A DNA stretch of 64,000 nucleotides from Trileptium ribeirensis (taxonomy: Eukaryota > Nematoda > Enoplea > Enoplida > Thoracostomopsidae), in the NCBI GenBank assembly GCA_030248225.1, contig JASANE010019175.1:1-64000 (forward strand), read 5' to 3'. A program made the translations under genes and the position numbers. Shown here in pieces: positions 4,763 to 64,000 of this stretch. Each line of letters starts with the position of its first letter. Position 1 is the stretch's first letter. The notes under the pieces were generated by a model. It had not been told where the DNA came from, made no database searches, and saw nothing but the letters and a program-made list of their open reading frames with translations.

Positions 4763-5254
4763 TACAGTTTTACATGTAACTGTGTAGTGGATGAATGCAA
4801 ATTTGTGTATAAGGACGAAAAAATCACTTAAATTTCTGCAAAATTAATCGTGGAAAGTTCTGCTGACAGCACTGCTATATACTATCCGGAAAAATCTGTG
4901 GCCGATAGTTTCACCGGCTCACCGGGCGGCCAGCGCCCAACATTACTCCATAGCACTCCACAACGAACAGTGTATAACAGTTTAGAACGGAGGCCTTCGA
5001 TGCAAGGCTCAGGGAAGCCTTATATGAAATGTGAATCGTGGGCTAAGGCTTAGGGCACCGATAATGGTATACTCTGGAGTTTTGTTAGGTCATTGTACAA
5101 GCGTTCCCTACACAAGCACCGCTATCTTATGGTTCCGTAAGGCAGGTCTCTATGCGCCACCATACACTGAGTCTTCTACAGAGCAAGGATGTGCAAACCG
5201 ATTTCGAGGAAATATCAGATATAGCCCGTCACCTTTAGAGGCACGTTATGTTAG

Positions 5255-55544: not shown

Positions 55545-56225
55545 CTAACGATGTGGGCGCCATTGTATTTGTGGTCTTTGCGCCCTCGGTCGCCACATTT
55601 GTTGTTCATTCTTTGGTCTTATTCTTGCAGTTTGATTTGGCCGATTTGATTGTATCTTTCGATACTTTGGTCGTTGTTGGATTGTGCCTTGTAGGCCTTC
55701 GGTCATTTGTTGATCTAACTTTTCTACTGCCTCTGCTTTCTCTGATAATGTTACGAAAGTTTCTACTTTTGCTGCACGTAAGCGGTTCCGCATTTTATTC
55801 TTTAACCCCGTTATTAGTGCAGATTTGAGAACTTCTTCGACAATTGATTCGGGCACACCTTTCGTGGTTAGTGTTCGTGCTGCGTAGACTCGTAACTCGT
55901 CTACGAAGTCTTTGACTGTTCTTGTTTGCCGTAAGCTGTGCAATTTATTCATATGGTTCGTCAATGTTTTTGGCACATCGAATCGTTCTTTAAACTTCAT
56001 GATCATTTCATTACAATTATTTAACTCTTTGGCTTTTTCAAGTGCCAGGACTTCAAAGTATTCTTCCGCCTTTCCTCGCATTTTTGCTCTGAATGCCCGA
56101 AGTTTTTCTTGTTCGTCATCAATACCATCCTGAAACAATGGTTTTTCGAATTCTTTCTTCTTTTCGAATTCGAAACTTCCCGAAACTTGTTTCGCCTTTA
56201 TATGGTTGTAAATTTCGCACTTCAT
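55545..56225 (-). pseudogene. Capsid-like (retrotransposon gag) block
   Basis: The residues after the frameshift at ~56,180 give FEKPLFQDGIDDEQEKLRAF ... KAEEYFEVLALEKAKEL ... FKERFDVPKTL ... LRQTRTVKDFVDELRVYA, the amphipathic pattern of retrotransposon gag proteins. A basic, Gln-rich tail leads to a TAG at 55,547-55,545, and the frame continues beyond it. Confidence 0.75.
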
Positions 56226-57732: not shown

Positions 57733-57902
57733 AGCTTTCCTTTTTGTCTTGTTCCTTTCTTTTCTGTTCCGGTGTATTTGGGTCGAACTCTCGCATTATT
57801 TTTTTAAGTTCTTCTGTCGTGTTCGACATTTCTTGTTCTTTGCTATCGGTATTTTTTGGTTTGACTGTCAATTCTTTTTGCGCATTTGCTCCAGGCGGCG
57901 TA

Positions 57903-58684
57903 AATTGTAAACAGTATATACACTAAGATAATCACGAAAATAACTAACACTATTAACTCTACGACGAAATGTATCTATATCATCATAATTGTAGATCACT
58001 CTACGTGTGTCTTCGCTATTTTTGTCCACCACTACTACCGAGTCTTGATCATCGCATTTAGTAGCCATCAGAAAATTAACGAAATCGTCAGAATTAATCA
58101 ATCGGAAAAAATATATCGCACCCGCAAGTAGTAACTAAAGAATATCTATAATAAGATGAAATAAACTACACATATATGTGCATAAAATGCCAAAATAATC
58201 AAAGGCAAAATAAATGGACCTTAAGCATTTATTTTCTTAAAGGAATGTGTCACAGCATACGTCAACCCTGTAGCACTCCGGAGAATATCGGAGTGTGCGA
58301 CCACACCACGTCAAGTTCCTATAAGTAACCGGAAGGATCTGTCACCAGATCGTTAGGGCAGTCCGTTTTCGTGGTCGGATTCAAACCGTAAAATTAATCC
58401 GTAAGTCGCCTCCGTAGTCGAGTAAAAGAAACTACTTAGTATACCACCATAATGCATGATCAGTAATTTGAACTAGGTTGAAATAAACCGCAGTTAAAAA
58501 AGGGGGTTGTGTTCATTTAATAAGTTTATATTAACGCCAAACATGTAAATAGAACGCAAGGTGTGTTGACCAACCGGCCAAGTTATAGAAACAGTAAAGC
58601 ACGCACAATCGTGCGTGAACATCAAAAGATGTACGCACAAGTTCCGAAATTAAGCGTGTTAACTATGATCAGTATATAACTTAC
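57903..58684 (-). repeat. Left (3') pseudo-LTR
   Basis: Nearly identical to 63,187-64,000. It contains the inverted repeat CACTCCG ... CGGAGTG (58,274-58,295) and an ORF starting MATKCDDQDS. One G is missing at the place of the proposed splice donor, so this copy's ORF reads on. The true end may extend past 58,684, as the other copy leaves the window there. Confidence 0.85.
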
Positions 58685-58699
58685 AAATAAGTCTTCAAC

Positions 58700-59139
58700 A
58701 TCATCTCATAGTAACATCATGTTAACGAAGAAATAATTTGTGTGATTTATTTTAATTTTATTATCTTTACTTTTCAACACATAAACGCAATATAGAACAA
58801 AATATAAAGCGTCATCCTTTGGTGCTAAAAATGATTGTAACTGAAAAACAAAGTAGTGCAGAAAATAGACATAGCTACTTAACGTCTCTAATTGGGAAAA
58901 TATCACAAACCGGTTTATCCGTGCAACAAAGTATCGTATCCATTATTTAAGTAAAGATATCATTCCATAGAAAGTAAATAGTAGTTTGTAGAAAGCCCAA
59001 GATTACAAATATAACGGGTGAAACGACCAAAATTGATAAAAAGTTATAAGGCCTAAATGGCCAAAGCACCATAAACGACTGAACTAATGATATATCATCA
59101 CAACATATGCACTCGTTCCCGGCATAAAGTGATAATAAA
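58700..59139 (-). other. 3' region of the Penelope-like element before the 3' pseudo-LTR
   Basis: AT-rich sequence after the second ORF. It is where a selenocysteine insertion (SECIS) element should lie if UGA is recoded. No core could be assigned by eye. Minus ORFs here (58,706-58,906; 58,947-59,216) have no domain. Confidence 0.4.
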
Positions 59140-59801
59140 TCACTCGCTATTTTTGAAAGCACCAATAGCATCAGTATATTCCGATGGTATATCATACACA
59201 TTGTACGAAACACCATTAATAACTATCGCAGGTTCGATACCAGGCTTAACAATTCTAAACTTACGACCAAACTGCCTGTTGAGCTTATTAAGAAATCCCA
59301 ACTTCTGAGCCTTGGAAGACTCGTGGTGTTCATCTAAAAACACCGGAAGTCCTCCTTTCGTCTTTTGTTCAGCATTGTAACGTCTCAGAAGTCTAGCATT
59401 CCTCATAATACTAATTTTGAAACGGCAGTGCACGAAACTGACAATAATCTTCTTGACACCATTACCGGGTCCCTTGTCGGGACCCAAGAAATGACAATCC
59501 GAAATATCAGAATCCGTGACCGCCCGAATATTAGAATCTGCTATTATCGTACTGTTCAGAAAATTAATAACTTGATCAACAAGTGGCTGGTCGTGATTAA
59601 CTACAAGATTGCGAATAATAATATTACGTTTCCGACTATGTTCCGCCTCCGCACGAACTATATTTCTCAAAGCTCGTATCTCATTTTTCTGTTCATCCAA
59701 TTCCTGTTTGAACTGCTGGGTAAATGATCTAAATTCCGTTGTTGAAACCGTATCTCTGCTGCTGCGTTCAGACGAATGCGCGCAACATTTTCTTTTATCA
59801 A
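59140..59801 (-). CDS. Second ORF: coiled coil plus RNA-binding-like domain (ORF1p-like)
   Basis: A frame of about 220 codons begins at a strong splice acceptor (TTTATTTATTTATTTGCAG) and ends at a stop at 59,140. It encodes a Cys/Ser-rich start (DKRKCCAHSSERSS), a coiled coil (FTQQFKQELDEQKNEIRALR), then RKRNIIIRNLV ... KKIIVSFVHCRFKISIMRNA ... GLPVFLDEHH ... FRIVKPGIEPAIVINGVSY. The layout resembles the coiled coil, RRM-like and C-terminal domains of non-LTR ORF1 proteins. It has no own ATG near the start, overlaps the RT stop only through intronic-looking codons, and is intact. Its role is probably nucleic-acid chaperone or RNP protein of the element; it could instead belong to another nested element. 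Confidence 0.6.
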
Positions 59802-59876
59802 CTGCAAATAAATAAATAAATCGAAAAAACAAAATAAGTATTACTACCGACAGAATCCTAACGTATGTAAGTCGTG

Positions 59877-62730
59877 TTATCTTAGGCAAGCAATATTAGT
59901 ATTTATTATATGAAGCGTTCTATTGACTGTGGAAGAATCATTACAAATTTTATTAAGAGCGCGTTTCAAATGGTTATAAATAAATCGTCTGGAATAGCCT
60001 CTGTTTTTCAGTTTACGGACTAAATAACTTAAGTTATTGATAAAATATTCCGGTGCGCTGCAGGTTTTAAAGTAGCGATGGATTTGTCCGTGAATAATAC
60101 CTTTAAAAACCGATAAAGAAAGATTAGAAGTAAAAAATGGATAGTTGGTGATTGGAAAATCCAAAAGTTTTCTTTTGTCAAAAAGGTCAACATCGGCCTT
60201 TCCGTATTTAATAGTTATATTTAGGTCAAGAACATTAGCTTGCTTATTGTGGTCGTTGACTTTGCAAAGTTCTAGCGAATTTGGATAAATATTATGATAA
60301 ACCGACTCGAAGCTACCAAAGTCGTTAATAGTGGAAATGTCATCAATATAGCGGAAAATATATCTAAGTTTATTTCTGAGTGGAGCGCTTCACGTCATCA
60401 TATAATCCTGTTCAAAGGTATGTAAATATAGGTTAGCAATATACGGAGCGGAATCCGTGCCCATTGGAATACCAATAGTCTGTCTAAAGACCAAATCCCC
60501 GAAGGTAAAATATGTATTATGGACAAGCCAATCAAGGATGTTAATAATCCCATTCGCATCTAGTGTCAAATTCTTACTAGAGCTATTACACCAATAAGCA
60601 CCCGATTTACCAACTGCGATAAAATCCTTTTTAGAGCTATTAAAGGCACCCCTAATTAGACACGACAGTCTAAAAACTTTATCTTTATGCTCTAATTCTG
60701 TATACATTGTTGTAAAATCACAAATGTTAACTGTGTGCATACCGTTTTTATTATTAAAACACTTAATAACATCTAGAATTTTATCTGAATTATTAATTAT
60801 CCAACAATTATGAAACCTTTTAAATGTTTAGTTCATGTCCGAAAGCTTACGTACTAAATCTTAAATACATTAGTCTCAAAATACTACATAATACTCTAAA
60901 AGCTATCTTGGTATACGCAAATTTACTCGATATAATGTATCTGAATTTAACAGGGTTTTTATGAAATTTAGGAATCGCTTGTATAAAGGGTAAACAGTAG
61001 TAGTTAAGTTCATGGAAGTTACCAAAATTTGATTCTATAAAACATTTTTGCGTGTACAGAATTTTATCTTGCATAACTGGTATTAAGGTATAAGTATCGG
61101 AGTTGAAATTATTACAACCATCGAAGCCCAGTTCTTTGGCGATCACATTGATATAAAATGATTTTCACATAAAGCTAAAATTTTGCGAGGCCTTATCCGT
61201 AACATTAATAACATAATCATTTTTAATGTTCCTAATATACTTCAATTCAATCGAATTAAGGAACTCATCAGAGCCAAAATTTCTGAGTTTGAGGCCGTTA
61301 ATGCGTTCATGTAGACTTAAAATAGCATTTAATTTGCATTCCAAAAATATATTTTTTCCATATATATACCCGTATTTATCCATAATGTTCGAGATATAAT
61401 TATTCAAACTCCGATAAAAATTTAACTTACCCTCATCAAAGTTAATTTGGCGATGCATTCTATACGTTGGTCCCTTCTTCACAAGCATCTTAAGGTTAGG
61501 TAGATTAATAAAATTAAAATTACCAGTAATTACGTGATCATAATGCTTATTCAAGAAAGGAGATAAGTTACAGTGTCAGGATATAGGATTGTTGATAAAT
61601 TTTACTGTATCTAATTTTTCTATCGCTTTGCGATAGTTAAAAAGGAAACTGCCGAGGGTCCTACCATAACTGAACGCGACATAGGGGTTAGCAAGATGAT
61701 CAGTATTGAGGGGCATGTCATCATACTGCCAAAATCTTTTAATTCTATCTTGACGGAAAATATTACCCAAACGTACGACGAGATCAAAACCTAGGTTAGT
61801 AAATTCAATCTTCAAGAAGCATTTAGGCTTTGTTTGAATTTTATGTTTATCACCGAATCTAAAGTTCAATATATCCAAGACTATCTCTAATATTAAATTT
61901 TGTCAGTCTACTAAGATCAATATTGACATGGCGAATAAGATCAAATAAAGTGTAGGCAATGTGTTTATTAATACTAAAAGTGTATTTATAAACTGCTCTC
62001 CTTAATGTAGTAAGGCAGTCCGTATTAACTGAATCCAGAGAATCAAACAATAATTTTGGGTGATCTAATAATCTACCCGTGCGTCCTCTGCCACGTCCCC
62101 TTTTTCTAAGGGAAACGTTCCCAGTAAAGTTAGAACAAACGGCTGCCCCAAACTTCTCTTTAGCCATTCTATCGTTTAGACCATAAGGGAATTTCGTCTT
62201 AAGACATTTAATCCAAAAATCTTCCTTGTCAAGCCTGTGTTTTTTATCCTCCACCGTATTGGTGGTATCAATCACTTCAATAATTTTAATTTTTAAAGAA
62301 TATCAAGTTTTATTATTAAAATGTTCAGCAATAAGTTTACTTTTCATGTCCGAATTCTTTTTAATAGCCAGCATGTGCTCATAAATTCTAATTTTAAGTT
62401 TTCGTCCCGTTTCTACAATATACTGTATGCCTCATTGACGGCATACTAATAAATATACCACGTTAGCCGTGTCTCATGGGTGTAGTGTTTGTTTATTTAT
62501 ACAAAAAAATATCTATAATTACACGCGGAAACAAACATAGGGTCCGGGTCGAACATTTTACATACATTACAATTTTTATTTCAGAGCTTAGGTAAAAGGC
62601 AGTAGTCCAAACCGAAGATTTTATATAAACTGTTAGCCCTTAAACACAACCCGCAATGCGGGACCTGCCCATCCCACATGGTGGGGTCCCGTGAAGACAC
62701 GGTCGCATGATTTATATTATTGTGATTCAT
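59877..62730 (-). CDS. Naiad-like GIY-YIG endonuclease / reverse transcriptase with in-frame UGA codons
   Basis: An ATG at 62,730 follows an in-frame TAA. The N-terminus has a Cys-rich region (HCGLCLRANS, NCNVCKMFDP) and a GIY-YIG-like block (NVVYLLVC, IQYIVETGR, RIYEH; the second-motif Gly is Val). Then come LDKEDFWIKCLKTKFPYGLN, the linker PIS-UGA-HC (CxC position), VTDKASQNFSF, LPFIQAIPKFHKNP, RT motif IPMGTDSAPYIANLYL, catalytic RYIDDIST and a C-terminal thumb-like end at TAA 59,879-59,877. Seven in-frame UGA codons fall at 62,581, 62,474, 62,432, 62,303, 61,576, 61,165 and 60,390 (first base listed on the plus strand). Real damage: frameshifts in a T7 run (~62,507), near 61,865 and near 60,848, and a TAA at 60,828-60,830. 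It is a slightly decayed copy, probably of a selenocysteine-using element. Confidence 0.82.
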
Positions 62731-63186
62731 TATTGTTTTAAAAGTTTAATTTTCAGTAAAAATGATCACTAATGCTGGGATACAGAGTAAATTTCAGTGA
62801 AATGAATACCCAAGAACTGAAACATGGTTTATACGATTCAAACATCAGCTCATCCCCAACCCAGTGGGCTTTCCGGGAGGAGCATCACGGTACCGTAAAA
62901 GCCCGGAAAATAAATAAACAATGGACCCTTGAAATTTAGATAGTGTGTGGTGTAACAGTGACTCTATGATCGAAATAAATAAAATACAAGTGCAACAAGC
63001 TTAATTTTACCAAAATTAAATATTTAATTTTTTCCAACATAAGAAATGGAATTTTTCCATACATGAAAAGAAGACGTAAAATACGTCGGGGAACGGAACT
63101 ATGCTCGAGATTTTCTCTCGTACACATATGGACCGAACCTTAGTCAAAATTGAAGTTTTGTATAATTTTCATTTTCGACATAACAA

Positions 63187-64000
63187 TTGTAAACTTTATA
63201 TACACTAGGATAATCACTAAAATAACTAACCACTATTAACTCTACGACGAAATGTATCTATATCACCATAATTGTCGATCACTCTACGTGTGTCTTCGCT
63301 ATTTTTGTCTACCACTAATACTGTGTCTTGATCATCGCATTTAGTAGCCATCAGAAAATTAACGAAATCGTCAAAATTAATCAATCGGAAAAAAATATAT
63401 CGAACCCGCAAGTAGTAATAAAAGAATATTTATAATAAGATGAAATAAACTACATATATATATATGTGCATAAAATGCCAAAATAATCAAAGGCAAAATA
63501 AATGGACCTTAAGCATTTATTTTCTTAAAGGAATGTGTCACAGCATACGTCTACCCTGTAGCACTCCGGAGAATATCGGAGTGTGCGACCACACCACGTC
63601 AAGGCCGGTCTTCCTATAAGTAACCGGAAGGATCTGTCACCAGATCATTAGGGCAGTCCGTTTTCGTGGTCGGATTCAAACCGTAAAATTAATCCGTAAG
63701 TCGCCTCCGTAGTCGAGTAAAAGAACCTACTTAGTATACCACCATCATGCTAGATCTGTACATTTGAACTAGGTTGAAATAAACCGCAGTTAAAAATGGA
63801 GGGGGTTGTGTTAATTTAATAAGTTTATATTAACGCCAAACTTGTAAATAGAACGCAAGGGGTATTGGCCTGCCGGCCAACTTATAGAAACAGTAAAGCG
63901 CGCTCAACCGTGAGTGCAACAGTAAAGTGCGTGAACATCAAAAGATGTACGCACAAGTTTTGAAATTAAGCGTGTTAACCATCATCAGTATATAACTTAC
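63187..64000 (-). repeat. Right (5') pseudo-LTR, truncated by the window edge
   Basis: Direct repeat of the left copy, with the same hairpin (63,562-63,583). Differences include a short GGCCGG insertion near 63,605 and a local duplication of AACAGTAAAG(C/T)GCG near 63,890-63,920. It should carry the promoter of the element; no ribozyme core was recognised. Confidence 0.85.
63231..63351 (-). CDS. Proposed leader exon in the 5' pseudo-LTR
   Basis: ATG at 63,351 opens 40 codons (MATKCDDQDTVLVVDKNSED ... DTFRRRVNS), acidic then basic, preserved in both repeats. It ends G|GTTAGT, a good 5' splice site with one base left over. The strong acceptor at 59,802 needs exactly one base. Joining the two is an inference. 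Confidence 0.45.

Follow-up and report, generated by a model that had tools for sequence, protein, structure and literature searches.

Why would the reverse transcriptase (RT) frame of a retroelement be interrupted almost only by UGA codons? The question is raised by the window studied here, the first 64,000 nucleotides of contig JASANE010019175.1 of the nematode Trileptium ribeirensis. In this DNA the first-pass annotation had counted seven in-frame UGA codons, one UAA and no UAG, and had proposed a Naiad-like retroelement encoding a selenoprotein RT. All window features described below lie on the minus strand.

A decayed retroelement copy with seven in-frame UGA codons

The endonuclease-RT (EN-RT) frame, with a GIY-YIG-like N-terminus and an RT C-terminus, occupies 59877..62730, from the ATG at 62730 to the stop ending at 59877, and was traced with sister frames and the database homologues P0001-P0004. 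The counts of the three stop codons were borne out in the homologous frames, and all seven quoted sequence contexts were found. Counting down the minus strand, the first bases of the TGA codons are 62583, 62476, 62434, 62305, 61578, 61167, and 60392, and the TAA is at 60830. Site 1 (KL-U-NKNC, 62581..62583) has cysteine in the five other tabulated families and in P0001-P0004, and sites 2 (HP-U-DTAN, 62474..62476), 3 (RQ-U-GIQYI, 62432..62434), and 6 (FSFM-U-KSFY, 61165..61167) were followed through sister codons, the family codon table, and database homologues. Site 4 (NKT-U-YS, 62303..62305) is UGA in the window copy and in the sister copies L009, L011, and L012, and TGT in L010 and in the majority of the distant subfamily. 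Site 5 (PIS-U-HC, 61576..61578) corresponds to the first cysteine of a CxC linker. The seventh UGA (MMT-U-SAPL, 60390..60392) is private to the window copy; the 18 sister rows at this position contain 13 TGT, one TGC, two TAT, one ACT, one CTT, and no TGA.

The frame can be read through only with three shifts, placed by eye near 62505, 61890, and 60855, that were absent from the first-pass annotation, and its UAA stands where the sisters have tyrosine (DMN-stop-TFKRF versus DINYRFKRF). Because of the three frame breaks and the UAA, the window copy is a dead pseudogene, a decayed copy of the element. This state, like the private seventh UGA, would suit random mutation of a dead copy as an explanation of the stops, which we weigh against the sister copies below.

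The insertion is bounded by pseudo-LTRs. The left one (63185..64000) extends past the window to approximately 64100 of the contig and forms a direct repeat with the right one (57903..58784), the 3' end of the insertion being at approximately 57903. The two are 91.7% identical over 916 aligned positions, and inverted copies of the repeat are sited just outside the window. Such a complex repeat arrangement is what Penelope-like elements are expected to show. A Ty3-type capsid/gag ORF adjoins the insertion at 55548-56225, with Pfam matches to Ty3_capsid and Retrotrans_gag above cut-off.

Relationship to Naiad elements

Naiads are characterized by an N-terminal endonuclease, a CxC linker, a C-terminal RT, and pseudo-LTRs, and multi-selenocysteine (multi-Sec) Naiad Penelope-like elements of spiders and clams, with several in-frame UGAs, were reportedly described by Craig and colleagues in 2021. 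In the present element, a GIY-YIG endonuclease N-terminal to the RT was recognized via the homologues. The homology covers 89% (P0001) and 94% (P0003) of the query; P0003 has a GIY-YIG match at 118-177 with 21.1 bits (cut-off 22.6), and P0004 has a precomputed PF01541 assignment. Pfam searches of the L009 and L013 proteins themselves returned no domain, and the RT end was assigned from motifs recognized by eye. The CxC linker motif is invariant in all five aligned sequences (C384 and C386 of L009). Pseudo-LTRs and complex tandem or inverted insertions are both present, as in Naiad-type elements. A hammerhead ribozyme, which in its canonical form is absent from Naiad-type elements, was not found by Rfam in positions 57800-64000 of the window, nor in L009-L013, L015, L021, or L036-L038. 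The architecture thus fits a Penelope-like element probably of the Naiad type, a class assigned here from this architecture and the defining features of the clade.

Sister copies retain the UGA codons

Searching the genome (687 Mb, 20229 contigs) at the DNA level with 801 bases of the element gave 27 matches, and 20 stretches were fetched. Pieces of the near group (L009-L013) are 84-93% identical to the window and those of the distant group (L014-L028) 67-86%, mostly 70-80% in the ORF; approximately 24% of the bases differ between the two subfamilies. L009 has an 813-codon open frame with 762 homologous codons, six TGA, and no TAA or TAG. The same six TGA are carried by L011 across two frame pieces and by L012, which has one extra TGA at a small deletion beside site 5 and more where it is out of frame, and L013 keeps TGA at the one site that it covers. 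Five UGAs are common to both subfamilies, and that at 62305 is restricted to the near subfamily, TGT standing there in other copies.

The codons were also collected site by site as raw tblastn rows, among which are the window copy itself, loci represented more than once, and misalignments, and which are not all independent because L017 and L022 overlap on one contig. TGA was present in 13 of 14 rows at site 1 (the other being CGA), 8 of 13 at site 2 (with one TGT, one AGA, two ACA, and one gap), 8 of 11 at site 3 (one TGC, one TCA, one gap), 4 of 12 at site 4 (six TGT, one TAT, one ATT), 17 of 20 at site 5 (two ACC, one gap), and 20 of 24 at site 6 (two ATG, one GAA, one TGG).

The majority codons of the two subfamilies were compared wherever at least two near and at least three distant loci were available. 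Among the 759 codons compared, 399 were the same, 186 differed synonymously, and 174 were replaced. Eight of them are UGA sites, either TGA/TGA or TGA/TGT, and neither TAA nor TAG was a majority codon at any of the 759. The C-terminal stretch of 491 codons gave 269 same, 129 synonymous, and 93 replaced codons, with no TAA or TAG. Two further UGAs occur in the distant group, one in NCNV-U and one at the second cysteine of the CxC linker, and the near group has TGT at both. The dN/dS ratio was 0.137 for the near versus distant majority and 0.25-0.29 for L009 versus L010, L011, and L012; these ratios of 0.14-0.29 indicate purifying selection.

Random decay would be expected to spread stops equally over UGA, UAA, and UAG. 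Instead, the majority codons contain stops at UGA sites only, six of the window's seven UGAs are common to sister copies, exchange between the subfamily majorities occurs only with TGT, and the UGA-bearing relatives have otherwise open frames. Random decay was rejected, as it is contradicted by both the sister-copy codons and the majority-codon comparison, and we give it practically no weight as the origin of the stops.

UGA codons correspond to cysteines of related proteins

A protein search of the genome with the L009 frame gave at least 71 match rows, and 59 of the 746 candidates were scored. L036 and L038 have 958-codon open frames with four TGA each and L037 a 987-codon open frame with six, all of them devoid of TAA and TAG. 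L041, L042, and L043 represent, among the matches listed, families without UGA; the single TGA of L042 in the alignment sits upstream of its first ATG. The pseudo-LTRs of L036 are 99.3% identical, its frame is intact, and its SECIS element, discussed below, lies between the left pseudo-LTR and the ORF.

In the codon table of six families there are ten UGA columns within the coding region, of which eight show TGT or TGC in the aligned non-UGA families, apart from column 31 in the poorly aligned N-terminus, where two Cys-only families have CCA and CCC and the third has a gap. At L036 column 243 and L037 column 431, UGA occurs without a cysteine in any other tabulated family, and these two are apparently new Sec positions. 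The four database homologues are 26-31% identical and have cysteine at sites 1, 2, 3, 5, and 6 in all four cases and at site 4 in three, with one gap. All six shared UGAs consequently align with a cysteine of other families of the same genome and of database proteins.

Two side observations were made during this survey. The young L036 copy contains an ATT-rich microsatellite (L036:4073-4608) between the RT and the right pseudo-LTR. A degenerate nuclear copy of mitochondrial COX1 is present at G000:C17193:64554-65603, followed on the same strand by an ND4-like stretch (by eye); this single nuclear contig accounts for all COX1 matches obtained.

The enzyme is likely a selenoprotein, because the sister copies keep UGA where related reverse transcriptases have cysteine. 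The earlier estimate that at least four of the UGAs stand for Cys or Sec proved cautious with regard to the shared codons, which number six (site 4 in the near subfamily only), and does not extend to the private seventh. The host has a tRNA-Sec (81 bits, anticodon TCA by ARAGORN), which was the part of the Sec machinery searched for.

UGA is the leakiest stop codon, and ordinary readthrough or a suppressor tRNA could be imagined to read it here. Such decoding would not account for sites that match cysteine and exchange between UGA and TGY, for the covarying SECIS described below, or for the tRNA-Sec, and readthrough would yield almost no product because four to six leaky stops follow in succession. 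We consider this explanation very improbable, and ordinary readthrough was rejected on the sister codons, the majority codons, and the six-family codon table.

A predicted SECIS element precedes the coding region

The first-pass annotation had also asked for a SECIS element, to be sought in the 3' region and the pseudo-LTR. An element-encoded SECIS is indeed present in the window copy and in relatives including the intact L036, but it is located upstream of the ORF. In the window, it was matched by Rfam SECIS_1 (RF00031) at 62833-62896 with 32.5 bits and an E-value of 0.0015 (gathering cut-off 35), and it shows a UGAU/UGAU quartet, an AAA apical loop, and a mini-stem. The near-group elements have a G directly before the UGA, where most SECIS elements have an A.

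Of seven sister stretches given to Rfam, a SECIS was listed for L009, L011, and L012 (31.9-33 bits) and not for L010, L013, L015, or L021. Nine further stretches yielded L017 with 30.3 bits as well as L040 (39.7 bits) and L044 (38.4 bits), both above the cut-off. Among L036-L038, L036 and L038 scored 39.7 bits, and L037 was not listed. Scores in the window family were 30-33 bits, just below the cut-off of 35. Even at E-values up to 1 or 5 Rfam missed the element in L010, L014, L020, and L021; the SECIS cores of L010 and L014 are damaged.

A covariance model, R1, was built from nine copies, which constitute its own training set. Beyond these, it matched L011, the damaged L019 (25.7 bits), L036, L038, L040, L044, and L037. 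The L037 element scores weakly (27.6 bits with R1) and escaped both Rfam and the pattern scan; it has its own helix II sequence and keeps a UGAA/GGAU quartet and nine pairs. Weak opposite-strand matches over the same spot were obtained with R1 in L017/L022 (27.4 bits) and L021 (18.6 bits). No match was found by Rfam or R1 in the Cys-only L041-L043, each represented by one copy, or in L039, a relative of L037 that has no N-terminal part. L013 is cut by a contig end within the ORF and has no comparable leader; nor do L015, L016, L018, and L023-L028, because their match to the window starts within or beside the ORF.

Pairing was assessed in 11 sequences; L037 was supplied and failed the 0.0005 cut, and L011, L022, L038, and L040 were left out. 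Standard pairs filled 91.4% of the pair cells, and pairing dropped to 36-51% when the partner was shifted by 1-3 columns. Double-sided changes were seen in 6 of 17 pairs, a number reached by 2 of 500 shuffles, and the covariation score of 0.260 was reached by none of 500 shuffles (mean 0.147). The number of further pair types was not above that in shuffles (475 of 500 as high), and covariation among the first nine sequences was weak (37 of 500 as high). The alignment was fitted to the model and therefore favours the structure.

The distance from the end of the SECIS to the ATG is 102 nt in the window, 101 nt in L009, and 120 nt in L036, and the L037 element ends approximately 150 nt before the first in-frame ATG. 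In three Sec families the SECIS thus precedes the ORF; the sole SECIS seen behind an ORF lies between two tandem units on contig C6869. The candidate location in the 3' region or pseudo-LTR was rejected after searches with Rfam, with R1 (E-values up to 1, 5, or 10), and with a home-made quartet/stem scan of six copies, in five of which the leader SECIS was the top match, that of L037 being missed. Conserved in-frame UGAs at Cys-equivalent positions and an element-encoded SECIS, as expected of a Sec gene, were thus found, and a SECIS 3' of the coding region was not, outside that tandem.

Right ends of the copies and the position of the SECIS in the RNA

Penelope-like elements typically form partial tandems, and the copies on contig C6869 are arranged head to tail, so that the SECIS of the next unit is 3' of the ORF of the first. 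The family could accordingly encode a selenoprotein whose SECIS acts from the 3' side, if tandem read-through (or circular) messages placed the leader SECIS of the next unit after the ORF. This would agree with PMC8310308 and PMC9622424, in which eukaryotic SECIS elements are otherwise described as 3' UTR elements.

The right ends of the copies speak against such messages. They are resolved in four of the six near copies, at 57903 in the window copy and at the positions matching approximately 63155, 63147, and 63148 of the leader in L011, L012, and L013, respectively, and all four fall approximately 250 bases or more short of the SECIS at 62896. Of the other two, L009 is truncated within the ORF and has its extra pseudo-LTR upstream, and L010 extends past the end of the sequence that was fetched. 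In L036 the insertion closes with the right pseudo-LTR at 5171, and no SECIS was found in the following 330 bases. Target-primed copying begins at the 3' end of the RNA, and because the right ends precede the SECIS, the mobile RNA likely ended there and carried the SECIS ahead of the ORF. We regard a 3'-acting SECIS as rather unlikely.

The leader, the small ORF, and ORF2

A leader block at 63071..63150 with two predicted hairpins is conserved between the subfamilies (identity 0.76-0.93 versus 0.46-0.51 over 63070-62931) and was not matched by Rfam. Its start nearly coincides with the right ends of L011, L012, and L013 (63147-63155), as would that of a self-cleaving ribozyme placed at the beginning of the unit.

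At the end of the left pseudo-LTR there is a small ORF of 41 codons (MATKC...FRRRVNSG-stop, 63229..63351), a possible first exon that is conserved with L009-L013 and the L036 family; a second copy lies inside the right pseudo-LTR (57949..58068). The ORF, of approximately 40 codons (DTRRV..YDDIDTFRRR), was found in the near group, in L026, and in the L036 family (L036:519-632 and 4911-5024). In the near copies and L036 it ends with SG and a stop within G-GTTAG, the right copy of the window having one G fewer, and L037 shares only this ending (by eye). In the leader, the SECIS is preceded by a small ORF and closely followed by an out-of-frame ATG, both of which a scanning ribosome would have to pass.

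Downstream of the RT, an ORF2 (59140..59801) is homologous to that of L037 (L037:4312-4977; 33% identity, E-value 6e-31 for the near subfamily). In both families it has no ATG and starts right after a polypyrimidine-AG resembling a 3' splice site (polypyrimidine-CAG in the window). It appeared L1-ORF1-like by eye only, and Pfam and PDB sequence searches returned nothing significant. In L036 no second ORF of at least 180 codons was found, and the ORF2 segment is absent from the distant copies. Splicing of the small ORF into the RT frame was rejected by eye, as stops intervene. The reading phases are compatible with splicing of the small ORF to ORF2, in which case the ORF2 message would have the leader, SECIS, and RT as an intron.

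Proposed decoding and comparison with known systems

The earlier proposal of a selenoprotein RT is supported at the level of the family: UGA exchanges with Cys codons, selection is purifying, the SECIS covaries, and the host has a tRNA-Sec. An RT with several Sec residues is very likely the product of this family. The reading that we hold to be probable is that of a dead Naiad-type copy whose family encodes an EN-RT with six Sec residues, decoded via the predicted upstream SECIS acting from the 5' leader, a mode of action that we infer from sequence comparison. The unspliced element RNA would serve as the RT message, on whose leader SECIS the host SECIS-binding factors and eEFSec would load. 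Ribosomes starting at the downstream ATG would then read each UGA as Sec, and the production of full-length RT would require sufficient selenium. With the SECIS placed elsewhere, the 3' end may remain available for target-primed reverse transcription.

If the SECIS does act from the leader in this way, the 3' UTR rule for eukaryotic SECIS elements is not absolute, models of signalling from the SECIS to a distant UGA must admit loading before initiation, and the retrotransposition of these families would depend on selenium. The genome offers a natural test system: eight aligned sites show UGA/Cys exchange, one family is young and intact, and there are sister families with Cys only. Chances seem about even that these elements represent a class of animal retrotransposons with up to six or seven Sec residues inserted from a 5'-leader SECIS ahead of the whole coding region, with selenium dependence confined to the unspliced mobile RNA because splicing to ORF2 would remove the leader and RT as an intron.

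The elements resemble the Naiads of spiders and clams in the N-terminal endonuclease, the CxC linker, the C-terminal RT, the pseudo-LTRs, and the multiple in-frame UGAs. Possible differences from these Naiads are the 5'-leader SECIS and, in the near subfamily and L037, the downstream ORF2. The host genome also gave no match to the arthropod cuticle domain PF00379, which makes an arthropod, and hence a spider, host less likely without proving the point, as the controls of that search gave no signal either. A literature search found no paper on selenoprotein Naiad or Penelope-like elements; it did not cover Craig et al. 2021, and we make no claim of priority for the 5' SECIS. As far as could be seen, the upstream SECIS in three families and ORF2 are new, multi-Sec Naiads having already been reported.

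With eukaryotic selenoprotein genes carrying SECIS_1 (RF00031), the family shares the UGA(N)/(N)GA quartet, the AAA apical loop, helix II, and a host tRNA-Sec. The position of the SECIS is different: here it is upstream of the coding region, whereas in cellular selenoprotein genes it is in the 3' UTR, as stated for eukaryal SECIS elements in PMC9622424 and for all cellular counterparts of the fowlpox virus element in PMC8310308. A parallel is this SECIS of the fowlpox virus GPx, which according to PMC8310308 also lies outside the 3' UTR. Unlike the leader SECIS described here, it is part of the coding sequence and follows its UGA; PMC8310308 reports, with reference to Mix et al. 2007, that it is able to work even from a position 5' of the UGA.
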